Assembly: GCF_964204645.1 (NCBI RefSeq)
Contig: NC_134026.1
Location: forward strand, 24,074,650 to 24,138,649
Length of the DNA: 64,000 nucleotides
Source of the DNA: Tubulanus polymorphus
Lineage: Eukaryota > Nemertea > Palaeonemertea > Tubulaniformes > Tubulanidae
Direction of reading: 5' to 3'
Every line of letters begins with the position of its first letter. The first letter of the stretch is position 1. The notes beneath the pieces are model-generated. The model ran no database searches. It had not been told where the DNA came from and saw only the letters and a list, made by a program, of their open reading frames with translations. Below are positions 1 to 56,500 of this stretch, piece by piece. Made by a program: the position numbers and the translations under genes.

Positions 1-207
1 GGGTATACAGTACTTTACCAGCTGGCACCATCTTCGCTTGCTGGGGTTTTTTTAAGTCTGACTACCAGTCCAGTCGTTACGGGTTACTAGACCACTTTTT
101 AGTAGTCGTATCGTTGCCTCCCGCTGATGCTGCTTGTGAGGTATGGCGAGAGGCAATCCAACTCTGGCAAGCGAGGATAGCTATATAGCTTACCCCGAAC
201 ATATAAA
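1..207. other. Left-edge non-coding sequence with hairpin-like repeat
   Basis: No coding signal. Around 49-100 there is a segment (aagtctgactaccagtcc followed by tactagacc) that resembles the inverted-repeat segment in heparanase intron 1 at 3484-3556, so it is probably a fragment of the same short repeat family. The left boundary lies outside the window. Confidence 0.35.
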
Positions 208-7652: not shown

Positions 7653-9917
7653 AAAAATTGAAACTTAGTTTTATTCGTCGTAAATATGTTCATTAGTCCA
7701 TGTTTGAAGTTAGTTTTGTGGAAGCACATAGTTCTTCGGTCTTCACTTTGGTCATGAATAGTTTTAGTTTTTCGTGAGAGGGTGTTACTAAAACGAAGAA
7801 CTATGCACACCAGTTAATTTTTGTTAATTCCGGGTAATTTATTGTCGCAGCAAGATAGTATGATGGTAGTTTATGTGCTACTTTATGTACTACAGTAGAC
7901 TCCGCCCGAATAGGATCCGATTAACCTGGAAAACCACTCAAATCGGATGTTCGATGATGCATAACATCCAACTCGGGTATCCCACAAGTCAATCAGATCT
8001 TTACGGTCCCAAGATGAGAGCCGACTCGGCAGAGTCTAGAGTATTGATCAAAGAATAAAATCGTAAGCATTTATTGGTGAAAAGAATGTATACAACAACG
8101 AAGTATGATGACAGTCTGTTATTAAAAAAACAAGGGTGGCAACTAATCTTTAATCTCAAAATGACCTCTCCACTGCAATCGCCTGTAATTCCAAACATTC
8201 TTAACCAATTCACATGAAATCAGCTTTAATACAAACTACTGCCGGTATCTAGAATTTCGTTTCTTGTTATGATCTATTTTCATATAAAACAAAATTTCAA
8301 AATTAATGAATTAACGGTATAGATATTTAAGATGTAATTACATAAAATGAAGGACTGCTCTGAAGCTAGTTAGCTAGTAAAAGTTGTATATTACATTTAT
8401 TCATAATTGGGAATTATGTATTCAGAAAATTTCACAATAAATCAGGTTATCATGTCATATTTAGCGTTCTCACTTCTTAAAATCTGTATCCGGTTTTGGA
8501 AATGGACTCGGTGAGGACACTTGACACAATGCAAAATGGAGATTCCTTCAGCCTATGCGCAGTTTATAGCCTGTAATACCATGACACCTCATTCCAGTCG
8601 GAATAGCCGGCTACATGTTGAAAAGTCTCATATATGAAGAATATAGTTTTTTTAGTGATGATATCTTTATTACAATGAAAAATATAAAAAAAACTTTATA
8701 ATAGTTATGAATTCAAATAATTTCATTAGTGGTTCTAATTCATAATACAATTACATAATACATCGACCATATGATAGTACCATATGTATTTCTATTATCT
8801 AGACTCATCATGAATCTTAATAACTTTTTTAGATAAAAATTTTCTAAAACTTACAGCTGATCATATATCAAAAATATATTCAAATAATATAGTTCATAGT
8901 ATTAGAACATGTATATCGAACTCGAGTATTTCGATGGTATTTGATAACATTAATACACCTAAGGAGACGATTTCCGATACCGGGTGTTCCTACCTATGAT
9001 ACACATTATTTCTAAGCATTATGTAGGGAATATATTCAATATTATTTGAAGAATACGTACACTGAATAAATTCTTTGTGTATAGACAGATGATGTATCAT
9101 TATTAGTTAATAAACATTTACAATTACAAGTAATTGAATATCCTTAAAGAGTATTCTTTTCTTTAGTTAGTATTTAACATGTTCTCTGTGATTGATTTTT
9201 ACTTTATAACTTAGTAGCATTGCCATCATATTTCGTGAGCAATATTTTGCAGTAAGGTGAACATTTCAGGATGTAAATTTTTCAATTATATGTGACAAAA
9301 CAATAACACTAACAACAAAATCAGGCAAACAATCACAACCTTTTATGATAAAAACCTTACAACATGATTTCAGGAACCTGCCCGAAATAATGGAATTACC
9401 GAATGAAATACAGAAGTATAACTACTATCGATAAAATCAAAGTATATAGACTTCTCTTAAAACAAAAGGTTTTAACAGTATAAAATTCATCCATCTTGAC
9501 ACAGAATTCATGTCCAAAATATTAAAATATTCACAGCATAATGTACTTAAACAATTACACTACTTTCTAGCTTATAGTAAAAAGTTACAGGAAACATAAG
9601 AAAACTCTCGGCATTCAAAAACAACACAACAGAATAACAGTTATTTTATTGCACTAAATATTTGCAAATTGAAAAGCTTGATGTTACTACATTTGTAGAC
9701 ATGTACAGATTTTCTATCCCTTTATTGAACTTTATGAATATAGTGCCATGGATGCAAAATTTTGACAAATTTTCCAATCATTTGCAGCATTCTCCACATT
9801 TGCTTTTGATTACAGGTATATCAATTTAAGAGTGCTAGAATAATAGCTGTGTGAGTAAGGGGATAATGCTGAAGGACGGTTTTTCTATGATCTTATTACT
9901 TTAGAAACAGTACACTA
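7653..9917. other. AT-rich intergenic region with pogo-like repeat remnant
   Basis: From about 7889 the sequence acagtagactccgcccg starts a segment resembling a pogo/Tigger-type terminal repeat, and 7890-8120 is the partner of the copy at 6120-6355. From 8220 to 9917 the sequence is about 70 percent A+T by eye with no recognisable exon. Its right part probably holds the 3' UTR of the minus-strand phosphatase gene, with a minus-strand AATAAA near 9643. Only spurious short ORFs are present. Confidence 0.4.
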
Positions 9918-12900
9918 TCACGTTGTATCTAGGCGTATCATTCGTAGTTTTAGACTATCAGCTAGTATACATGCAGCTTCATTTGAACCACCGCAGTAAT
10001 GTGACGACGAAAATACAGTCATAAGTTTACCTTTCTGCTGTACCTGTATATATGTGAAAACAAATTACGACATTATATTTATTTTTCTCTTTCATATAAA
10101 AATCTATCCAAGTCCAATTTGATTCATTTCATCATTTCTTTCATTTCTGGAAAGTTGTTAAGCATTGGCTTACATTTATATACTGAATTGACTGAAGATT
10201 AGATGAGTGGACATGCATCTTACCTGGAAGCCAACTTGTTGAACTTCATGAGCTCGCACCACATGAGATAAATTATTCTTTTCAAGAAATGTAATAAGAG
10301 CCTCACAACTGAAGAAATTAGCAGTACCACGTCTAGTATTGTGTATATATCCTCTATTCTTTTCAAGTCTCTCAGTCAGTTCAGGAGTTACATTATCTGG
10401 ACTACAAAAAAATCAATATTTTCTTTGAAAATGTGCTTTCCAATAAATTCTGAATAGATAAACAGTTATGGTACTCACTTAACTGGATCACTCCACAAGA
10501 TTTCCCAGGCTAATCGGCTTTCAGCTTCTGGGTCCTCTAATGGAGCTGGAATACTATTGATATCATCAATACTTTCGCAAACATGAGGAGCTGGAATTCC
10601 ACCATGGACACAAAATATCTGAAAGTCATTCAAAAATTCTCAAAAATTTGAACATTTACACAAAGATTAGCATTGAATTATGATATCAAATAAAATACCT
10701 TGTCATCAACAGTTGCAGCAATGGGCATGGAATCAAATACCGTATTTATTTCATCCCAAATTTGTAAACCTATCGTAGCCCCAAATTTGTCTATACATTC
10801 TCTGAAATGTCATCGAACATCAACAACATTCAATCTCAAATCAATGACAACCGAAATACTAATGCCGGTTAATTATGTTTATGTACTTACTGATGAAAAG
10901 TGAACATTTTCTGCACAGTTCGAACTTCATGATTGCCCCTCAGCAGATAGAACTTTTTGGGTGCAAGCAGTTTTTGAGCAAGCAGATAAGCAACCACCTA
11001 AAGAATTACCAGTGTGTAGAACAAAATTACGCTTTGTAGGACAAGTGGATATGTATTTCATACATTCGCAAGAAAAAATTTATTCGCCTATGATAAAAGT
11101 TAGTAATTGTACCTCTACACCACAAGTTCCACGGTCAACATAATCTCCAAGAAAAAGAAAATTGGCAGGAGTTAAATGTGGACCCATACGCCATAAAACC
11201 TTTTCGAAGCATACAAGATCTCTGAAGTTTCCATGTATATCCCCTAGAAAACGAATATTACGACTGAATGATGCGGCTAAAAGACGATGTAACATTTTCT
11301 TTCATCAATATTAACTTACCAAGAATGTAGGTAGGAGACTTCACTTTAATCAGTCGTGGTTCATCTAACATGATTTCTTTAACTTTTCGGCACAAAGCTA
11401 ATAGACATTTTGCCAATGCCCTTTTCTCTACATTACCCCAGTCAAATGGTGGCTAAAGTGTAAAGACAATATCGTGTGCACAGTTGTGAGACGTGGGTAA
11501 ATGTAATTCGCCAAACTTCAGAAAGAAACTCACCTTTCCCTCACCATCTTTGTCTGATTTAATTTGCCGTTCAAAATATCGTAAACCAGTCAACATTTCA
11601 TTGGCATGAGACCTCTGACAAAAACATTAAGGTATTCTAATTCAGAAAATGCTAAAAATGTTACTCTCTACTACATTTAACTATACCTTGACATGATATA
11701 TGAAAAATTCAACAGTAAAGTTCAATTCCAGCCCGCTTCATCATTCGAACAAACCTGATTAAAAGTATCCATGGAAGACATTCTTTCAAACCTCGATTTA
11801 TTGCCTTCCAGTTCAACTTGAGTACTATCACTAACAGCTGTGGTACCTGAACACAAACACACATACATCAATGTTAATAAACACTCTACCCCCGTACATC
11901 AGATATCATGTACCGGTATGTCACATTTTTTGAAGAGGAAAATTACCTGCTAATTCCCAGATGGCCATGACATCAGACAATGTGCCAGTGCGACGTACTT
12001 TGATAGCATGAGTAGCAAGTTCATACGGTCTATCTTTACTAACTGGAGACAGTTGACAGGAGTACGGAAGTTTGAAGCCATCGTCAGATACAATTGAGCC
12101 TGAAAAACATAACAAAATAAACTGAGGCAAAATGTATATCATGAATGCCTGATATATGTTTAATATGTACATGTACCTGGAGGTTTGGAGATCAGATCAG
12201 ATTTTCTTCTTTTTAACGGAGGTTTGAAAATGTTGAACGTGTCTTCTACCATGCTTTCACTTCTAAATGACAACGAAAAGAAAGAATACTTAGAACATAC
12301 AACCAAACCAACTCATTATCCAGTTTTTTTTGTGTTAAAAGTATGACAGATTACTCTTGTTTTCGGTATCCAACTGTGCACGATTCACTGAGACGAAATA
12401 ATACAGAAGTGCCGCGAAATTTCAGCTGGCCAACAGCTAACAGGAAGTCTGACATAGGAAGTTTATCGCGATGCTCATTACCAAAAACCCTGAAAATATA
12501 TCCAGATAACAGCAATTTGTTAACAGCACTAGTATAATTCGATGTCTTCAAAAGTGATATTTTGTTTTTCTTAATTTTTTTAAACACAAAGGTGCAGTCA
12601 CCAGTCAAAAAGTTTACAGCTTGTGAAAATGCATACACAGAACAAACAAAATAAGATAGCGGGTGCAAGATCGCGTTTATGAACATCACCACAAGACTTT
12701 CCTCACTCCCCTAGAGTCTTACTGCTTTACAGACAAAATGATGCATACTGTAGATAGTACCAAATATATTTTTGATAGTACACAAATCATATATGCAAAC
12801 CATACTGCTTTAATCATGCAATAAAATTCCTAAATCACTGTTGGTTAATATTTTAGGATAGTGATTGATATAATATGCAATATATAATATGCTCTTCCAT

Positions 12901-15172
12901 GCATCTTTTTACCAAAGATGGTTAACATCAAAATATCAATCAATAATAATGATGAATATTATAAGCACACAAATGATAAATATAACCTATGTACCAGTTT
13001 TTGTTAGAATCAACTAGAGAATCAGTAGTGCTTTCATCATCACTCCAGAATGTTCTGAAAGGGAAATGTGTTTATAAAGCTTTTCTAAGTTTGCCCCATG
13101 CTTTATTCATAGTGTTATATTTGTCACTTTGCTTATCAATTGTCGATTGTTAATCAAATCATACATCGTTATAGAGAATTATAGTGTACGTAAAGTGTGC
13201 CAATATTTGAAACATAGCTGCAGCGGGTTATCGCTAAGATTCCAAAAGTTTTTAGAGCATCCCCCTCTACAGATATATGTACAAGAAATCAGTAACTTAT
13301 ACGGATTACATGGGAAAATAAGCACAGATACGTTTCTGCAGAATTCATAGTCACAAGACTTAACGAGGAAATCATAATAAAAAATACTACTGAATACACC
13401 TTCAAAAGTGCAACGTTAATAGCTTACTTTGCATTAGCTTCTGCTTCTTTATCAACTGATTCATCATCAAGACTAAGTCCCTTGAATTTCCTTATATCTG
13501 ACACTAAAGATCTGTAAAATACAAAACAAAATTTCTAATGTAAACAGATGTCATAACACACCCACACAAAGTGGTAGGAGTCTAGATAAGTGGATGATGG
13601 TTCCCACTACAAGTATGTGAGGATTAATGCTTTTGTCATTTGTCCGAGGCATTTTTGATACTTTAGAAAAATAATTAATTATTTTTTTCTCGCAGAAAGT
13701 ACCTGAATTCAGAAAAATCGAGCAACCCATCACCATTAACATCGTAATATCTGAAGATATAACGACATCTCATTTCAGCTGGTGTTCCACCATGTTGTGT
13801 ACAAGGTTCCATAGCAGACAATCCATACAGGAAATCGCGGTAACTTAGCATGCTCCTTTTTTGAATATCAAAAGCTCTGTATATAAAAGCAATGAAAATC
13901 ACATTTAACTGACATCTTCAATCCCAAATTGTTTATAGAAATAATCTAGTTGAATTACCTGAATAGGCTTTCAATGAAGTTTTCATTGACACCTTTGGCA
14001 ATCATGCATTTCATGAAATTTTCAAAATTCATCATTGTGCTCGGCGAACTGTGCTTCGAGAAATCTTCATAAATCCATCCTTGCTCTGAAACCAACAAAT
14101 CTAATTTTTTTTCTGTTTTTCTGCTAGCTATAAAGTCCTCAGTAAAGATTTTTACCTTGTTTGTTGAAACGAGCACCCTTCACTAGTTGTTCTTGTGGTG
14201 AAAGTTGAGCCCCATCCACATTAATATTAACAGCTTCAAAATAATTCTCTTGAATTACCGGAACAGGCATTATACTAGCACCTAAAATTTCAAACATTTT
14301 TTCATAATTTAGCCTGTTTGTTCACAATGACAAAAACCATCTCAAAATCAAGATAACTCTCAATTCAGATAGAATTATTAGGTCACAATTGATGTCAAAG
14401 TTAAGAAGGATTTTCTATAGTATTAATCGAATGTGAAAATTACCTTTTTCTAAATATTGTACAAACTGAAGTGGTTCAATACCATGAAGGGAATGTTTCT
14501 CTTCTTCAAGTTCAGTTAAAGAGAACCATCGAGAGAACTCATCAACTGTCTGTACTACTAGTAACGGATGAGTAAGGTATGTAATTTGAGTATACGTGTT
14601 GCTAAGATTATCTCCTGAAGGCAAACGATGCAACTGAACTCGAAGGACACCCTGCAGACTTATTCTTGTTCCAGCAACCTTTTAAAAAGTTATATAAAAA
14701 CCATATTAACAATATTGGAAGCTATTTAACAGATATGCATGAAAGAGGTGCTGAGCACATGATTAAAATCGCAATTCATGCGCATATGCAATTCAAAATC
14801 AAGTGCCCATGTACATTAAACTATAGAAGGGAGATTTCCGAGAACCAGAAGGTAAAGATTTTACCTCAGCTGCAATCCTTAGTGCAGCAGACTTGAAACT
14901 TTCATTGTTCTGAACTGTACCAGTTGGAAGCCACCATCCCAGCGCTGATTGTTTCACTAGCAGGTACTTTCCATCCTCTTCCCGGGGTATCAATACACTC
15001 ACAACGTTACTGAAAACCATCACAGTTCATCTAGCTAACTGAAAATTAATTGAATTATTAGTCAATTAACAAATTGAATAGACATAGGCCTAGTTACCTT
15101 GTCATCCAAGACTTACACCTTGACTAGAACAATGCTAGAAAAATTTTACCTGGTGAAATAATAATTTGACAT
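9918..15172 (-). CDS. Nudix-like / EF-hand / PPP-family Ser/Thr phosphatase fusion protein
   Basis: Twenty coding exons (15172-15150, 15009-14865, 14678-14444, 14281-14156, 14085-13959, 13876-13703, 13511-13428, 13054-12995, 12489-12355, 12259-12177, 12099-11947, 11846-11755, 11614-11534, 11452-11320, 11243-11113, 10997-10891, 10801-10699, 10618-10479, 10401-10224, 10043-9918) sum to 2436 nt, 811 residues. Residues 9-130 look like a Nudix fold: GWWLPTG, then box G38-x5-E44-x7-R52-I-A-A-E56-V-A-G59. The canonical REUxEE reads RIAAEV, so hydrolysis is doubtful. An EF-hand pair spans about 205-280; the second loop D264-E275 is canonical and the first degenerate. The PPP domain (545-811) keeps GDIHG (551), GDYVDRG (583), LRGNHE (613), HGG (669), RAH (760) and HYC (785). 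It probably dephosphorylates proteins under Ca2+ control. Exon 1 and the exon 9/10 junction are the least certain. Substrate unknown. Confidence 0.85.
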
Positions 15173-16009: not shown

Positions 16010-18147
16010 ATGGAAATGAATGAGTTTGTTTATGCTGTTGTTAGAAATATTCCAAAGACTTATCACACCAGCGACCTGCGAAATTATTTCTCCCAGTTCA
16101 TAGAATCTGGTGGATTTGACTGTTTTCACTTTAAACACCGACCTGAGAAGACTTCGACGTACTCTTCGGAAAACATTCCTTCTTCAACAACAACCAGTTC
16201 CTCTTCTGTTGACGCTGCTAATACTGGTGCATGTAATAACTACCAAATGTACAATGATGACAGTGCGAGGCAACGTAAAAAAACCAGTGGATCTGATAGT
16301 TTAATGAAAACGTATTGTTGTATTGTACGAATGTCCCCAGAAAATCTAAAACGATTGCTGAAAATGTATAACAGAAAACATTGGTTGGATATAAATGGTG
16401 ATTCAATTGCCAGCCTTTGTCAGATATCAAAGATTAAAGTCAAGGATATCGGTGAGAGTCTCCAAGATAATTGTAGAACCTAGTTCATCATCGGGAATTT
16501 CTATTAGGCATGATGGTATTTGTTTACATTCTTACTTCCACACTAATGTCAATTCACAAATTTAGTTTCAGATTCTAAAACTAAAGATTACAAAACTCGC
16601 ATCGAAGAAAAACAGATTCCAACAGATCGTGAAGAATTCACCAAATCAGATCTTAAGACCATGAGGGAATTACACCCACCTCCGCTTATGAAAAATGGAA
16701 ATGTTGGCACACCTACAATGGTGTTCATGGACCTGATAAAACAGTGCAAATTACCCTCGAAAATTATAAAAAGTTTAGGATTAAAGTTCCCTAGATTGCG
16801 GTTAAATAAGCGTTATGGAAAGGTACCATTTGATTATGGAGGCACAGTAGTTGCCGGTACTCTTCCAGATGATGTAGTGTTGAGTGGTGAAGGAACAGAG
16901 ATCATATCTACCGATACGTGTACTCCTATGGTAACTGAGGATGAGAATAGGAAAGCAGAAGAAAATATTTCAAGTAGCTGCGCCACTGGAGAGGACAGTG
17001 ATCCAGATAACGTAAGCATAAATGAAAATTAGAAAATGTTTTATCTCCCTTGAGATAAATATTCAATACAAACTAATGTCATGAGAACTGAATCTACTTA
17101 CTGATAGGATGATGATACATGTGAAGAATGGGAGCGTCATGAAGCCTTATACGATGATCCTGATAACCAAGAAAGAAATAAGGAACGATTGTTCGAGGAA
17201 GAAATTGAACTGAAGTGGGAGAAAGGAGGATCTGGTTTAGTGTTTTATACCGATGCCCAATATTGGCAAGAAAAAGAAGGAGGTATAATGAATTGCAGTA
17301 CTAGTTTATGTTATCAATGAAATTAAGTTTTTTTTGGAGGCATCTTATTACTTCCCAACGCATTTACCATGAGGTAATTTAATTTCGTATGTTTTCATTC
17401 AATTTCTAGATTTTGATGAACAAACTGCAGATGACTGGGACATCGATATGAGTGTTTACTATGAAAAAAATGCTGGCGATAAGGATGCCCGAGATATAAT
17501 GATGATGAGACGAGAGCAGAACCGTCATCAGGGAATTTTCGACAAAGATGATAATACTTTCAGACCATGGAAAAGGATAAAGCAAAAATATTCATGTGAC
17601 AGCAATGATGAGGATGAAATATCAACAAAAAGGATTGGTAGTTTTGAAAAGTTCACTAAAGTAAGTTTGCGTTGATTAATTTAAAAAAAGCTTAAGTAGC
17701 ATGCATATGGGCCTATATTCTTTTCTAGCTGTATCTAAATTTTAGGGTTTTGGTCGTAAACTGATGGAAAAACAAGGCTGGAAAGATGGTCAAGGCTTGG
17801 GCTCTAGTTTTCCTGGAATGGCCGAGGCTCTGGAAAATGATGGACAGAATCCTAAATGTAGACATGGTTTCGGGTAAGTATAAGACATGAAGACAAATCG
17901 AATTGTAAAAAAAATAAATTGTTGATTTATTATCTAAACTATCTTCCTATGTATTTTCAGTTACTACGGCGAAAAACTGACTGATTTCAAAAGTATGAAA
18001 AAGCCAAGAACAGATCGACAATTTATTGTGTCAACAGTTTATGATAAGCATGAAGATACAGATCCACCTGAAACTGTATCGCGTAGAAACAATCATTATG
18101 GACTTAAATACCGCACATCTCGCATTGACTTTGTAAATTCATCTTGA
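16010..18147 (+). CDS. GPATCH3: G-patch domain-containing protein 3
   Basis: Six exons (16010-16451, 16572-17011, 17108-17282, 17410-17660, 17746-17873, 17961-18147) give 540 residues; human GPATCH3 has 525. The N-terminus (FVYAVVRNIPKTYHTSDLRN, then YFSQF) is the RRM-like part typical of this protein. The middle block includes LMKNGNVGTPTMVF and RYGKVPFDY. The most conserved stretches are LFEEEIELKWEKGGSGLVFY, TDAQYWQ and FDEQTADDWDIDMSVYYEK. The G-patch follows at about residues 436-480 (GFGRKLMEKQGWKDGQGLG). G-patch proteins activate DEAH helicases in RNA processing; vertebrate GPATCH3 is nuclear and has been linked to antiviral signalling. The exact role here is inferred by orthology. Confidence 0.95.
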
Positions 18148-27217: not shown

Positions 27218-27548
27218 TCTTGATGTGTTTCAATCGAGCAAGCTCCATGAATTTTAAAATCATAATCGCGGGAGTGGGCTGGACGAAACGTCATTGAATA
27301 CATGACCCACCCACAAATTCTAATCCATGTGAAAAAAATGATAAAATATCAATATGTAATGGCATGGTCTCAGAAATCCAAATAAACTAGCAATTATGAT
27401 TCTAATCACTGAAATGATAACTAATTGTGGCCAGTAGGTGGCAGCACTCGCAGAACATGTGCCTGTACATGAATCCTTTGACAGATTACAGTCACAACAC
27501 AACGCGTACGATCGCATTACACTGTTCTGATCAGGTTTGTGGCATGAC
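27218..27548. promoter_or_regulatory. Compact bidirectional promoter region, NSRP1/ASPHD
   Basis: Only 331 bp separate the two divergent start codons, so transcription of both genes must begin in or near this interval. I see no TATA box and no clear core motif; the assignment rests on gene arrangement. Confidence 0.55.
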
Positions 27549-28877
27549 ATGGCGTTCTTGTTTACCATAGATTGCTATCATTTACTAGGTTTTGCTTTGG
27601 GAGTGATAACAACAATAGCATTAGTGTGGTCAAAACTGAAAAAAGAGCTAAAACTTTTTGGGGGCACCACAGCTGATGATGATGCCAGCAGCAGCAGAGG
27701 CAATGATAATGATGAGGAGAAAGACGATGATAGAAAGTTCTCTAAATGCAAATCCGCAGGATGTGTTCGATGCAGTCGAAAGAATTCCGTGATTTCAGCC
27801 GCAGCCGAGCTCTTGGACAACTATCAAAGTGAACATCCGAAAAAGTTACCGCGTAGAATCGAATCAGCAGTCGATAATTACGAAGAGATTTTAACCAAAC
27901 TCAAAGGTTCAATGCAACAACCGAATATTTTTTTCTTACCCGGTCTGCGTACGTCTCCGTTTTGGAATAGTAACTCGTTTTCGAAAGACGCGAACGTGTT
28001 GAAAAAAAGTTTCAACGAAATCAATAAGGAATTTTGCACGGCCTATGCTAAAACTGCCGGCTGGATTACAAATGTCGTTCCGACGGGAGAGTGGCACATT
28101 TATCACTTGATCAATCAGGGCCAAGTTGTTGAAGAGAATGCGAAATGTTGTCCGAAAACGATGAAGATCGCGAGACAAATGGATTCAGCTATGAAGAATA
28201 ATCTATTCGGAAATGTTAGCTTTTCTGTGATCATTCCCGGGACGCATATAACTCCGCATTATGGACCGTGTAATTTCCGTATACGTGCTCACTTAGGTAA
28301 AAATTTATGATTAACGTCAAAAATTATCTTTGCCAGACAGTAGCGGTAGTTAGTTTTTTCCTAAATTGTGATAGTCATTATCTGTTGGACATAAAATACT
28401 CAAGCTGTCTCTATTTTCCGTTACAAGGTTATCACCAAGACAAATTGGGCTGACTGGACTCGTGCCAATTTACTAGTCAGTCATAGTAAATTTATTTCTG
28501 TACTATATTTGGCGTGATGCCAGACCGAACTTGTGTCACATTTTTTTTCCGTACCACTAGCTTCTATTATATTATATGATTATTGTACTAAAGTTGATTG
28601 TATATTTTCAGCTTTGCTCGCTCCGACTCAATGCTCATTAACGGTCAGTGGTATCAGTAAAACCTGGAACGCAAAAGATTGCCTTTTTTTTGATGATTCA
28701 TTTTTACACGAAGTTCAACACACAGGCACCGATGATCACGGACCCCGCGCTGTACTTATCATCGATTTATGGCATCCAGATCTCAAGAACGCGGAACGAA
28801 ATGTGATCGACTATATATTCCCTGGTAGTGGTAGTGGCGAGAAAGTTAACGAACATCCTATAAAAAAGAGATTATGA
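27549..28877 (+). CDS. ASPHD2: Aspartate beta-hydroxylase domain-containing protein (ASPHD1/2 type)
   Basis: Two exons (27549-28296, 28612-28877) give 337 residues; human ASPHD2 has 369. ATG at 27549 is preferred because translation from it begins directly with a membrane anchor (LGFALGVITTIALVW, about residues 13-27). An acidic Asp/Glu-rich linker follows. The catalytic domain starts near FFLPGLRTSPFW and continues TAGWITNVVPTGEWHIYHL. It has PHYGPCNFRIRAHLG, with the first Fe(II) His and an Arg for 2-oxoglutarate, and FFDDSFLHEVQH with the second His, then RAVLIIDLWHPDL. As in AspH, only two His ligands are visible. It would be a type II membrane 2-oxoglutarate oxygenase; its substrate is unknown. 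Choice between ASPHD1 and ASPHD2 is uncertain. Confidence 0.9.
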
Positions 28878-36800: not shown

Positions 36801-39800
36801 GGGGAGTCATTATAGTAACTGGGACTGGTTTATGCTATAACAAAAAGAAAACATTATAAACAGTTAATTAATCCAAGATTGATGAATCTACCTAACCGAA
36901 TTAGCTACTTACCGGTGCTTGTGGAGAATTCGGCAAAGAACCACTAGCTTTCATCAATCCCAGGAGTTTGTTAAATGCGGTCATATCTTCATTTGAGGGC
37001 TGTTGTTGAGGAGTGTGTTGCTGTGGTTTCATAGGTGTAGATGATACGCCTGCCTCGAGTTCGGCGAGTGTTTTTATACGATCAGTCGGTACACCTGGAA
37101 TTGAAGCTGTGAATTGAAGACCAAGATTAAAACAACATCGAACACACAAAATAATACAGAGATTATAGTACAGAGTGGCCACTTTTATTTGACTTGCTTT
37201 TTCCCTGACATGCACATTGTTTTTCCTGACTCCATCTGCTAAGAATCCAATCAATTAACACAGTCAAATACTTGACTGTTTTATTTCACTTGCGATCTAG
37301 CAATATCAACAAATTTCCTCGTCTCTTAGCTTATTCTATTTTTGGACAAAATTCCCTCACTATTCCCAGACTTTTTTAAAGAAAAGAAAATTCTGACTTT
37401 TCACTGATTTCCAAGTAAATGGCCACCCTGTAGTAGTGGATAAATTAGCGATAATATAGTGGATGTATCAAATTGATCCAATAAACCTAATAAAGGATCC
37501 AGTTCCATTTTCATGAACTCAGGAAACCACCTATTGAATTTTAGATGATAAGACAAAAATTTTCTTGCTGAAGACAACTCAACTCAGTGACTTCCATAGT
37601 ATCAAACTAATGAGTAAGGCAAAAGTCTACTGAGCATTTTAAAGAATTTCTAAATCTTTGCTGGTCTACAATCATCGATATGTTCCATATATCATCGCTC
37701 ATAAGTAAAAATCCACACATAAACAACACCGATGATGAATGAGAATGTCAAATATAAACCCTTAATTGTGCATCAACTTAAATTCTTTTATGTCATAATA
37801 TTTGATCAATGAATTGAATGGTAAAACGCTTGTGAAAAAAATCAAATAAACTTCAGATTGCAACATAAAAAGCTTAGCCAACTAAACTTACAACATGCAA
37901 GATAAAATATGTGATCAACAATCACAATAAGTGAAAAGTGTATAAATAGTGTTTGAAAAAGTGTTAAATTCTGCAGGACATTTGATATGGGACTTGATAT
38001 GACTTGATGATACCAGTTGAGTTGGTACCATATATAGCCAGATATAACAGCTAAGTATTGAACCTAGACATTTTCTTGAAAAGGGACTGACTTCAAAGGT
38101 ATCTTAAGATTTTATGTACAATTTAATGGAGATGTCACTTCACTAATAGCGATATAGGATAAAGAATTTTCAGTTTTTAAACCACAGAATATAGAAAATC
38201 CTCAGATGAAGCTCAATAATTTTGGCCCGAGATATTCATTTTCAAGACTCTAGGCCATACTCACTTTCTTGTATGCTGTCAAGTCTATATCGGTTTCCTT
38301 TAAGGAATATATGGATAGCATTCAATCATATGTATTTCATTAGTGCGCAAACAAATTGTTCAGATATTTGGTGAGTTTCTATACACAGGGAATCTAAACC
38401 GATTTCGAAATCATCTTTGCCAATCAAAAAATACTATTACATAGTGCAACTGCACATGCTCCATAGGAAATAACAATACATAGGCTAAATTCTGATAAAA
38501 TCAGACTGGTTACAACAATACCATAACACAAGGATTTTTAGTCATTTCAACAATTGTTCATTCAATATTGGAAGTGTTTAGTCATACGTAGCCTTAACAA
38601 TTGAAATGAAATTTTATAAGATACTTACTGATAACAGGACGCTGTTGCTGTTGTGAAATTTCAGGTTTCTTGCCGGAAAACAGTAGTGCCTTCAAATCAG
38701 CCTCCATTGCCGATGCTGTGACTGCAATTTAAGAAGTTCCGTGATGAAAATAAACCTTATATATTGTATCGATTTGTGGCCATGTAAAAAAAATGTGTTC
38801 TCTGTAACTCCGAAACAATGTGTAGTGATGCTTACCTTTATCCCTATCCGAAAGTCTTGACATGTGTGTTTGATGAGATGGAGGAGGTACGTGTAAATTT
38901 GGTTTATTGTTCATCATCATCATCTCAAACAGTGACTGCTGTTGTTGTTGTTGTTGATCTTCGATATTTGGAATTGGCGAAAACATACCTGGCGGATCTG
39001 AAGGCGATGGAATTGTAGGACTTCGGTGGCCACCAACGATGTCCGAAAATGAAAGATCTAAAAAAGAATTCATATGGGCCTCAAAACTGTTCTGCTAACG
39101 GATGAAGTATTCTAATAGGCTACACTTAGCTACATTTAGTAAGCAAAAGTTTCATACACCCGTTTTTGCTTTACGAAACATTTAACTCACTAATTACTTA
39201 GCAAGCATAGAATATAACTTTTAGTCGTATAATGTCCCAACTCGTTTAATACTCGATTAAAGATAACTAACCATGTAGATAATTATAGTCATCAGTAAAT
39301 GAAGATCTACGGCTACCATTTCTACTGTTATGAGGGCTATTAGTTTGAAACCATCGAGTGAATCGACTTCCACTTTGAGGCACAGTTGCTTCACTTTCCA
39401 CCGTAGGGTTACTCTACAGATAATTATAATACAGATAATCATTTTACAATGCCATGAAAAAGTCCCCTGTTTAGAATAAATTTTTGAATGAAATCTAAAA
39501 GTTTATGATCCTAGAAGAAAGTAGAACAAAATGTATTGGAGAATGTGCTCACACCAAGTCCTGGAATGGTCTCGAGGTTGAAAAATGCGTTAAAGTCAAA
39601 GTCAGGTCCATTAGGTGCTTGTTCTTGTTGCAGTTCAGCTTTATCAGATGAAGCTGGAGTCGATGGTTTTTCCGGCGTTGTTGATCTAGCTTCATCCAAT
39701 GAACTACTGTCATTGGTTGCAACGCTCTCACCATGCCCAGTGCGAGCTTGTTTTTCTGAGGCTTTTGTCGCGGACACATCTGTGAAAATATGTAGCATAT

Positions 39801-41362
39801 TTTTAAACAAAATCTTTAACGATGATATAAAGGAAGTTATGTACTTCATACTACAGCTATTCCTGAAAATACAGAACATCCACATCACTGACTGACCTGC
39901 ATCACTACCATTTTCAGTTTTCTCATCATAGACTGGGTCCTCAAATCCCCTCAGCTCAATAGTCTCTAGCTGGTTTGTGGGGCCACTAGTAAACCATTCA
40001 GGCTGTTCCTCCTCACGACGCCTTACAGGACGACGACCTGTTGATTGAAATCAATAAATTGTCAGATTTCAAAATTTACAAAAAAACTGAGCATAATTTG
40101 CACTATCTATAGTTTCTACTCACTACTAAATCGCCGATCCTCATATTCAGATCGTTGACCCTGTAATTGAGAGTTACAAAACATGAATGAAATGACTGTA
40201 TGTATGATAAAATACAATACACCATAGTATTGTCAAACTTAACATATCTATTAACACAACACATACCCGCCTAGTGTCCCTACTGTCTCGATCATGTTCA
40301 TCACTGTCTCGGCTATCTCTGCGATATCTTTCGAATCTCCTCTCATTGAATCGATCCGAACGGAAATCACGATCCCGGTCTCGATCCATCGCCAAACGGC
40401 CACTACCGATACGTCTGTCCGGGTTACGTCGATCCCTTGAAAATGCACAAACAAATAGAATCGTGAAATTTCACCAAAAACTCTGCGAGTTTCATCACCT
40501 TAGCAAAAATTGAGATTGATAAGGAAATGACGTACAGTCAAATTAGGTGCAGAATAGAGTTATAAGATCAGATTTCTAAAGGAATCTTTAACCAGAAATC
40601 AAGAGGGTAAAACAATGTGATAATTTACTGCTACCTTTCAACAGGTTCTCTATATTCCATCGGACTGCTCGGACGACGCTGCTGAGATGATGTGGTCACG
40701 TGACACCCGGTGCCAAAACTTTTCCGCTGAGGACTGAGGATGATGCCATCTCTTTCTTCTCTAATACGCTCTTTTGGGTCTGCAGGAATTAATTGTTACA
40801 ATTGTTTGAGTGAGTTGAGGTACTTTTGAACCAGTCGGAAAGGTACTGCTGGTACCTAAGTGATTTTACTCTTACCGATTGCGCGTCTAGTGAAGTCTCT
40901 GTCGAGGTCAGCCGGACGTCTCTTCTCTCTGCTCGGAACGGTAACAGGTGAATCACCGTGAGGAACGTGGAACGATCGGATCCATTTCTCAGGATCCCAA
41001 TAACCATCAGACCTGAAATTAATTCAACCTTCACATGAGGACCATGAAAACACGTACCCGGTAAACACTGCATGTGTTCGATAGTAGTAAAACTTACGTA
41101 TCAAATTCAATCGAAAGCTCGGCTGGTCTCGTTTTTGAAGCAGGGACCTCTGACAGATCAATCAACTTCCCCTGTATTAATTCAAAATGTTCAATGAATA
41201 AATTCATTTCCTATCATTACCTGCTATCACAGCGCTAATCTTATTTGGACAATGACTAACCCTGGAGTACATGTGCTCTGGCAATGGCCCATCAGAATCT
41301 GCAGTTTCTTCAGTTTCAATAGGAACATTTCCAGCTTCATCTTTATCTTCGGCCTTCTCCAT
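33869..41362 (-). CDS. EIF4ENIF1: eIF4E transporter 4E-T
   Basis: Twenty-one exons from ATG at 41362 to the stop at 33869 sum to 3612 nt, 1203 residues; human has 985. 4E-T binds eIF4E, shuttles it to the nucleus and represses mRNA in P-bodies. The canonical eIF4E-binding motif Y32-S-R-G-K-L37-I38 is split by the exon 1/2 junction (41261/41171). Also conserved are SDGYWDPEKW, ILSPQRKSFGTGCHVT, an RD-rich segment, QPEWFTSGPTNQLETIELRG (Cup-homology side), DFDFNAFFNLETIPGLG and SRFTRWF. Further on are DMTAFNKLLGLMKASGSLP, AFTPTSVIMKM, and near the C-terminus SNLTKWFGMDLLKQQLP with VDEIERRQ. Exon 14 (36646-36244) encodes a glutamine-rich tract of roughly 80 residues built on a RQMQEQQ heptad. 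A splice acceptor just before the ATG indicates an upstream non-coding exon. Confidence 0.95.
36380..36646 (-). repeat. Glutamine heptad repeat within 4E-T exon 14
   Basis: On the minus strand, about ten degenerate copies of a 21-24 bp unit encode variants of RQMQEQQ (for example RQLHEQH, CQMQEQK). Codons mix CAA and CAG, so it is not a pure triplet expansion. The translation suggests a helical glutamine-rich stalk. Confidence 0.8.
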
Positions 41363-53599: not shown

Positions 53600-56500
53600 T
53601 CAATCTTCGACTTCTGAGTTACTAGTGGTAGTAGTTTGGTGATTTACTCTCTGTCGACGACCAATGCATAAACAACCGCTATTCTTTCGCTGGCGTTTAA
53701 GCGATGATATTGGTTGCTGACTGATTCGTTCGCGTTCTTCATCACGACCACGTTTCTCATAATAGTCCAATTCTTTCAGATACCTGAATAATATTCAAAA
53801 CGACAAAACACATATATATCTTAAACATAAGAACGGGTTCCGCAGGTAAGTAAGCCTGACATAAAACTCAAAATATCGGAGTATTCGAATTTAAGTTTTA
53901 AAACTTTACCAAAGTGGTGGCCATCGATTCTTCACCAGATATGTTTGATTATCTGTGTGTAGCATTTTGAAGAATTTGAAATATTTGTTGTGCAAAGTCT
54001 GATAGTTGTTACACAGATATGACAGACACCAAGATGCCAGCTGGACGGCATTAAAGCACTGAAATAGAAGAATGGAAGCTCCAGGTACATCGGCTTAGAA
54101 TGTTATCATTAAAGAAGTCAGAATCCTAGTTCAAAATTCCACCTGTGCAGGTTCAATCAATGCAAGGACATCTTCCATAATATTCTCTCCATCATCATGA
54201 GCTTTCATCAGGTGTTTCACAAGCATGCTCTCTAATAAAGAATGCATGCGAGGCAAACACAAGCGATTCGATAGCTCAATCAATTCAACAGGGTCAACTT
54301 CAGAGAAATCTGGACAACAGTCATCGAGATACAGGTATTCTAGTAGATATGAGAATGGCAACTGTTCCAATCCTGGCATCGGTATCTAAAATAATGAAAA
54401 AACAAAAAACTTTTTTAGAAGGATCATAAACCCATATTGAAAAATTGACATTGATATATACCAAAAAGTGTACATACCACCTCAGCTAAACTCTCTTTAA
54501 AGTTATCAGTGAACAAAGCTAACATCCAATCACAACGAGTGACAAGCAGGGCCTTGTGCGCTGGTACAAATCCATCATCCAGCTGAAAAACCACATCTAG
54601 GGACAACATAAATAGAAAGTTACATGTAAGAAACATATTGGGATACATGTGCAATGAATCCGCAGTAGGACGGATTTATCAACAATTAGTTGAATAGAAT
54701 GTATAAATTAAAAGAAATAAGTTACCTGACAGAAATCCTTGCTGAATTGCAAAGTTCCACATACGTTTAAACCTCTCCTTAAAGAATTTAGCTTCCAATT
54801 CTTGATTCAGAAATGCGTTACCATCCAACATATCATTTATCATATTCACTAAATCTCTAAGTTCTAACCAAACAGCAATTTGTTTGACTTGGAGAAGTAG
54901 TTCACTAATATATGGGGCTTTCCCGGTATATAAGTAATTCAATATGTAACGGAAAACAGCTGGAGTGATATCAGAATTTAAAACTACTGCAATTTTGTGA
55001 GTTTTACTATTCTTAGCTGAGCAATCGCTACCTTCAGCGTCCAATGATTCAAATGAATAAACACATTCAAATGCGGGATGTGAGAAATTAGCAATTGAAT
55101 CACTTTTATTTGACTGCGTTTGTTCTTCTTCGAGTAACTTTTGACGGTCAGAGTTTCCTTTTTGTTCTTTGTCACCATTTGCACCATAAATGCTTCCAGG
55201 CTTTGACACCATTTTAGAAATGGAGGCACGGGTAAGCTGTACTAATTGATTGCTGCAGAAAAGTTGTTGAAAAACAGAAGAAGCGGCAAGCAACATTACG
55301 CAATGAGCATAGATTCTACTTCCACGAGATATGAACACAACATCAGCAAAGTTTTCATCTAAAAGTAACTTTTCACAGTCTGATATGTATGTAGATTCTT
55401 TGACGATTATATCTGGAACAACATGCGGTGGTGGCAAGTATGGTGGCTGACATAACGGATAGTTAATACGCTTTAACTGAGGATTCCAGAATCGCATGCG
55501 CCGTCTTTCAATCAACGCTGCTCTTGTGATATTCTCAAAAAGGTGTTCAACACCGTGCTGTGTTAGTACACTTGTCTCATAATATTCAGCTCCAATATCT
55601 TTTGCTACTTCTCTCCCTTGCTCAGGTGTGATGATTTCAGACTCTTTAATTTCCCTAAAATGGAATATCAATCCTGATGTGATGAAGTTGAGATACTTTT
55701 TTTCACAACCCGTTTTACATACCAGACACAAATCATTGAAAAGATAGCATGTTATCATTTTGACACATGATAAACAATAATCGTTTCATTTGAAGATACC
55801 ATATGACATTCATTATTATATCAATATCACTTACTGAAAGAAAAGTCCTTTATCCATGGCTTTAAACTTCGGGTCTTTGTACAAGTGCCGAAGATCATTT
55901 TGACATCCACAAAGCACAATAGGAGTTCCCGGACAGTAACGTTTTATCTCACAGTACCAGATATTCCAAACGTTTCTCAATGACATCGGACGAACCACAG
56001 AAAAGCATAGTAACACCACATCAGCTCTATAATCATCATAATAAATAATTTCATGTTTTTGTTATGGACTGTGAAGAAAATTACAGGGCACTAGTAGACG
56101 GGATATTCCTTTGATATGCTCCTGTTTAGTATAATCAGGGAGGTGGGAGTGAACTCCCACCTCCCTGGTATAATGGACCAAATTGCCACTGGTATTTCTT
56201 TAACCATGCAGATAGCAATCTACAATGAGCCTCAAGGAAAGGTGGGGCATAAACTATATGATTATGTCATCTAAAATTAACTATAGGGACAAGCGCTTGG
56301 GAGTTGAGTCACAAACCTTGAACAAGCAAATCTCCTGTCCTTATCATGGTAGCCAAAAGTGTCCCAAAGTCGAAGAGACACTGCAACTCCGTCAACATCA
56401 CAGAAAGATAATGACAGTACCTGTAATTAATTGATCAATGCGATACTGATAATAATAATCACTGTCATGATTTCATTGTCTTTATATTAGATTAGCGGTA

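Follow-up and report, generated by a model that had tools for sequence, protein, structure and literature searches.

A Nudix-like domain, an EF-hand module and a PPP phosphatase combined in one predicted protein of the nemertean Tubulanus polymorphus

A gene located in the 64,000 nucleotides of the Tubulanus polymorphus genome analyzed here (the window) codes in one frame, and in this order, for a Nudix domain, an EF-hand region and a Metallophos domain. On balance, we favor the view that this is a single-copy animal gene that gives one protein, in which a non-catalytic Nudix-like domain and a module similar to the neuronal calcium sensors (NCS) are followed by a catalytically complete PPP phosphatase of the PP1/PP2B/Bsu1 branch. 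In animals, the catalytic subunits of most PPPs depend on separate regulators, and the known class with fused EF-hands, PPEF, has its sensor at the C terminus. We found no description in the literature of a triple fusion of Nudix, EF-hand and PPP, and to our knowledge there is no protein of this kind among the human PPPs (13 catalytic subunits).

Gene structure and coding evidence

The coding sequence predicted from splice sites, phases and translation extends over 15172-9918 of the minus strand and comprises 20 exons and 812 residues, with a sole stop at the end. All its introns are of the GT-AG type and the exon phases are compatible throughout, in agreement with the coordinates, strand and 20 in-frame exons of the initial annotation; only the protein length given there (811 residues) had to be corrected. 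The exons and the features discussed below are as follows.

Exons 1-7, minus strand: 15172-15150, 15009-14865, 14678-14444, 14281-14156, 14085-13959, 13876-13703, 13511-13428
Exons 8-14, minus strand: 13054-12995, 12489-12355, 12262-12177, 12099-11947, 11846-11755, 11614-11534, 11452-11320
Exons 15-20, minus strand: 11243-11113, 10997-10891, 10801-10699, 10618-10479, 10401-10224, 10043-9918
14444-15009, minus strand: Nudix-like domain, exons 2-3, residues 8-134 (Pfam NUDIX and a weak PDB match)
13703-14281, minus strand: NCS-like EF-hand module, exons 4-6, residues about 163-283 (phmmer match over 163-291, Pfam)
12355-13511, minus strand: acidic stretch (residues 286-325) and candidate fourth EF loop (328-339), exons 7-9 (read from the sequence)
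11534-12262, minus strand: linker, exons 10-13, residues 370-507 (no Pfam match; in-frame coding score)
9918-11452, minus strand: PPP Ser/Thr phosphatase domain, exons 14-20, residues 508-812 (Pfam Metallophos, matches to solved structures)
9645-9726, minus strand: two weak candidate poly(A) signals, AATAAA at 9726 and 9650, 190-270 bases past the stop codon (pattern scan)

To score the coding potential of the exons, we used a codon table derived from further genes of the same genome. All exons except exon 1, which has only 23 bases, scored above the introns, in a comparison that is partly circular because the intron segments were penalized for stops. Most exons have stops in both other frames, and the linker exons 7-13 also have an in-frame coding score. 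The gene would be covered by a single transcript from 15172 to 9918. The exact start is less clear, and the N terminus has an uncertainty of about eight residues. An out-of-frame ATG, 8 nt upstream of the chosen one, opens after splicing a 13-codon ORF that overlaps the coding sequence (15180-15150 and from 15009 on, minus strand), so that either this ATG is bypassed by leaky scanning or the true start is a different one, e.g., that of MVFSNVV in an extended exon 2.

The gene is present in one copy in the genome (268 Mb, 77 contigs), the remaining matches being partial PPP exons elsewhere. A homolog with the same domain order was not found in the collections searched, which hold almost no eukaryotic sequence, nor did viral contigs contain homologs of the whole protein. 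One viral and nine bacterial stretches were matched as HYCG(S/T)NEA-type DNA and none of them is a relative. In the genome itself, COX1, sought for the mitochondrial code, had no match, and aequorin gave none either, although the latter result carries little weight. Predicted proteins with this domain order may well be present already, unremarked, in public databases.

About 840 bases away and in head-to-head orientation there is another gene (window 16010-17029, plus strand) with two long open frames and no Pfam match, whose start presumably resembles GPATCH3; a promoter shared by both genes is possible. Further along the window we observed an aspartyl/asparaginyl beta-hydroxylase domain (27531-28307, plus strand), an open frame matching the eIF4E transporter EIF4E-T (39514-40050, minus strand, E 1.4e-16) and the end of a Ras domain together with a BTB domain in one frame, i.e., a RHOBTB-type gene (54682-55785, minus strand).

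The Nudix-like domain

Searched on its own, the Pfam NUDIX profile matched residues 10-118 with 34.9 bits (curated cut-off 21.1), extending over profile positions 5-123 of 134. This match to the whole domain bears out the Nudix fold that had been proposed for the N terminus, for which a profile search of residues 9-130 had been set beforehand as the refuting test. Matches among the PDB structures were weak (MutT/Nudix 3id9, E 9e-4). Active Nudix hydrolases have a characteristic Nudix box, GX5EX7REUXEEXGU. The box found here (23 residues, 38-60) is degenerate; it keeps G-X5-E-X7-R and continues with IAAEVAGT, the first and third Glu being gone, as judged also by comparison with 3id9. Since it reads RIAAEV instead of REUXEE, hydrolysis by this domain is unlikely, and the functional Nudix enzyme implied by the initial annotation is not supported, these catalytic glutamates being lost.

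Neither a RILGEE box in NUDT9 nor the RILRQE box of human TRPM2 is active, and in the TRPM2 of Nematostella the mutations of the Nudix box that disabled catalysis left the affinity for ADP-ribose (ADPR) not greatly impaired (PMC6461439). In the light of these data it is reasonable to think that the domain described here may have lost activity and kept binding. The NUDT9-H domain of TRPM2 is also similar in having a degenerate box with Ile in the place of the first Glu (RIL in human TRPM2 and RIA in the present protein) and in being fused to an effector module. However, NUDT9-H is an ADP-ribose domain of a channel, and the likeness concerns the box and the fusion rather than any specific kinship.

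The EF-hand module

In the EF-hand region Pfam alone detected one strong hand (EF-hand_7 at residues 254-298, 35.2 bits, cut-off 30; EF-hand_1 was also matched). A phmmer search of the PDB aligned residues 163-291, spanning three hands, with NCS-1, KChIP2, hippocalcin and their relatives (E about 2e-8), and calcineurin B-like proteins appeared also among the matches. The EF-hand region previously noted in the N-terminal half is therefore real, but rather than a plain pair of hands it is an NCS-like module with one canonical loop. Neuronal calcium sensors have four EF-hands, of which the first is usually cryptic. Along these lines, the loop of hand 1 (residues 188-199) is degenerate and cryptic; that of hand 2 (222-233) is also degenerate and has lost its Ca2+ ligands, and the 12-residue loop of hand 3 (264-275) is the only canonical one. 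After the acidic insert, another 12 residues (328-339) possibly represent a degenerate fourth loop, a candidate read by eye that had no profile match in Pfam.

The response to Ca2+ may be weak or absent, because three of the four presumed loops are degenerate. Taken further, the gene could be real and its EF-hand and Nudix parts mere structural remnants that anchor partners, the phosphatase being constitutively active. The degeneration of both the loops and the Nudix box points in this direction, and there is a precedent in Leishmania, where PPEF has EF-hands that fail to bind Ca2+ (PMC1885993). Against this stand the fully canonical loop at 264-275 and a sensor module that can still be recognized across three hands, and we consider this alternative unlikely, although it is the one that survives best.

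The phosphatase domain

The phosphatase appears complete. Metallophos was matched at residues 548-766 with 107.3 bits (cut-off 21.5), and to the motifs already reported for it (GDIHG 552, GDYVDRG 584, GNHE 616 and HGG 670) we can add RAHE at 761. Motifs and alignment together show all metal-binding, catalytic and clamp positions, including both clamp arginines, with HNTRRG (732-737) contributing an Arg.

Its position among the PPPs is most likely within the PP1/PP2B/Bsu1 branch. The highest single-domain match among solved structures was the plant BSU1 with 180.5 bits, and next came PP1 with 172 and calcineurin A with 170; an entry of 247 bits for calcineurin is the sum of two matching stretches and not a single-domain score. 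Sequence identity was also highest with BSU1 (40.6%), ahead of calcineurin A (39.7%), PP1 (39.0%), PP5 (35%) and PPEF (31%). In the alignment the protein shares with BSU1, near residue 638, an insertion of 4 residues that PP1 and calcineurin A lack. In approximately unbiased (AU) tests on a tree of only nine sequences, some of them partial, grouping with BSU1 (p 0.64) and with calcineurin A (p 0.57) were both acceptable and inseparable, grouping with PP1 was rejected (p 0.048), and neither grouping with the PPEF of this genome (p 0.054, marginal) nor with PP5/PPEF (p 0.118) was formally rejected. No Kelch match was found by Pfam in the 812 residues, which have an EF-hand match instead.

This last combination has been described before. 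A survey published in 2021 reports Bsu1-type phosphatases with EF-hands and without Kelch repeats in an apusozoan, two choanoflagellates, a fungus and a stramenopile (Thecamonas, Monosiga, Salpingoeca, Basidiobolus and Nannochloropsis), and its main text makes no mention of Nudix (PMC8249667). The novelty claimed in the initial annotation has thus to be narrowed: the three-domain order in one frame stands, but PPEF/RdgC are not the only phosphatases with EF-hands. Both the EF-hand Bsu1 proteins and the one described here carry EF-hands in the same chain as a PPP of the PP1/PP2B/Bsu1 branch, although the former were reported outside animals and the likeness is drawn from their published description. 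Most likely, the phosphatase belongs with or next to them.

Calcineurin (PP2B A plus B) is another PPP under the control of an EF-hand sensor, and its catalytic domain scored similarly. A fused calcineurin, in which a phosphatase of the calcineurin A type carries in cis a sensor resembling calcineurin B and the Nudix domain is a passenger, would agree with the near equality of calcineurin A and BSU1 in the comparisons above and with the calcineurin B-like proteins among the matches of the EF-hand module. However, calcineurin consists of two chains and has C-terminal B-binding, calmodulin-binding and autoinhibitory parts, and the protein studied here ends at residue 812, soon after the phosphatase. 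With almost no sequence left after this domain, the B-binding helix, the calmodulin site and the autoinhibitory segment are absent from the position that they occupy in calcineurin A. The insertion shared with BSU1, and the presence of a separate calcineurin A gene in the genome, also make this origin a rather poor candidate, somewhat behind the remnants considered above.

Besides calcineurin A, the PPP genes to which the partial matches elsewhere in the genome belong comprise two PP1, one PP1-like, PP2A, PP4-like and PP5 (those of PP2A and PP5 were confirmed against the PDB and the remaining ones, calcineurin A included, were named from their sequence). The PP1-like gene, third and more divergent beside two close PP1 genes, is located at C4:4298000-4307500. 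There is also a separate gene of the PPEF/RdgC type at C5:20604965-20609438, with the motifs NGDFVDRG and SASNYY and C-terminal EF-hands; an approximate PPEF query served only as a lead to this locus, and these features were then read from the locus itself.

The linker and the integrity of the gene

Between the EF-hands and the phosphatase, residues 340-460 (exons 9-12, window 12489-11755) matched no Pfam family and possibly form an undescribed domain. Some stretches of this region look ordered (for example, one of 12 and one of 27 residues), and the linker has a basic cluster, KRRK, at residues 387-390. It is also here that two or three neighboring genes in the same orientation (first Nudix with EF-hand, followed by the phosphatase) could have been wrongly joined, since the two longest introns (13427-13055 and 12994-12490), where the boundary would lie, fall between the EF-hand exons and the phosphatase, and among the further AATAAA motifs that the pattern scan found inside the gene there is one at 13107 on the minus strand. 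Nevertheless, every pair of exons is joined by GT-AG borders in compatible phases, the linker exons are coding by their score without a change of frame, the Nudix region ends in exon 4, which also has the first helix of the sensor, and the poly(A) candidates come after the final stop. A phosphatase-only gene would moreover begin with a linker that matches no known domain. Taken together, these observations make separate genes quite improbable.

PPEF/RdgC phosphatases have an N-terminal IQ motif and a PPP of the PP5 branch. They combine PPP and EF-hands in one chain, as does the protein described here, but their EF-hands are C-terminal (PMC1885993), a contrast already drawn in the initial annotation and which holds, PPEF being a separate gene in the same genome. 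A derived PPEF/RdgC phosphatase with rearranged domains is hardly credible, for despite the shared combination and the marginal AU result, PPEF was the most distant PPP tested, the genome has its own PPEF with EF-hands in the usual place, the EF-hand module matches neuronal calcium sensors and hardly any sequence follows the phosphatase domain.

Possible function and significance

If the gene works as one sensor-bearing phosphatase, Ca2+ bound to the canonical loop of hand 3 would most likely change the packing of the sensor module on the phosphatase. This would be analogous to the action of calcineurin B and of the PPEF EF-hands on their phosphatases, except that the sensor here lies in cis and ahead of the phosphatase. 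The anatomy of the protein allows moderate confidence in such an effect of hand 3 on the adjacent phosphatase. For the Nudix domain our confidence is lower; with its fold kept and its catalytic glutamates lost, it would bind a small molecule (a nucleotide or nucleotide-sugar) or a protein partner without cutting it, and might in this way provide a further input, in the manner of NUDT9-H in human TRPM2.

A bolder proposal, and a doubtful one, is that we are dealing with an undescribed class of animal phosphatases in which two second messengers, Ca2+ acting on the NCS module and a nucleotide (ADP-ribose, for example) acting on the dead Nudix domain, switch within one chain a Bsu1-type phosphatase that was lost in vertebrates. 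A single chain in which a Ca2+ sensor and a dead Nudix domain precede the phosphatase would provide a compact and testable system to see how Ca2+ signals, and possibly those of nucleotides, converge on one phosphatase, and would suggest that a type of phosphatase known from choanoflagellates has survived in animals.
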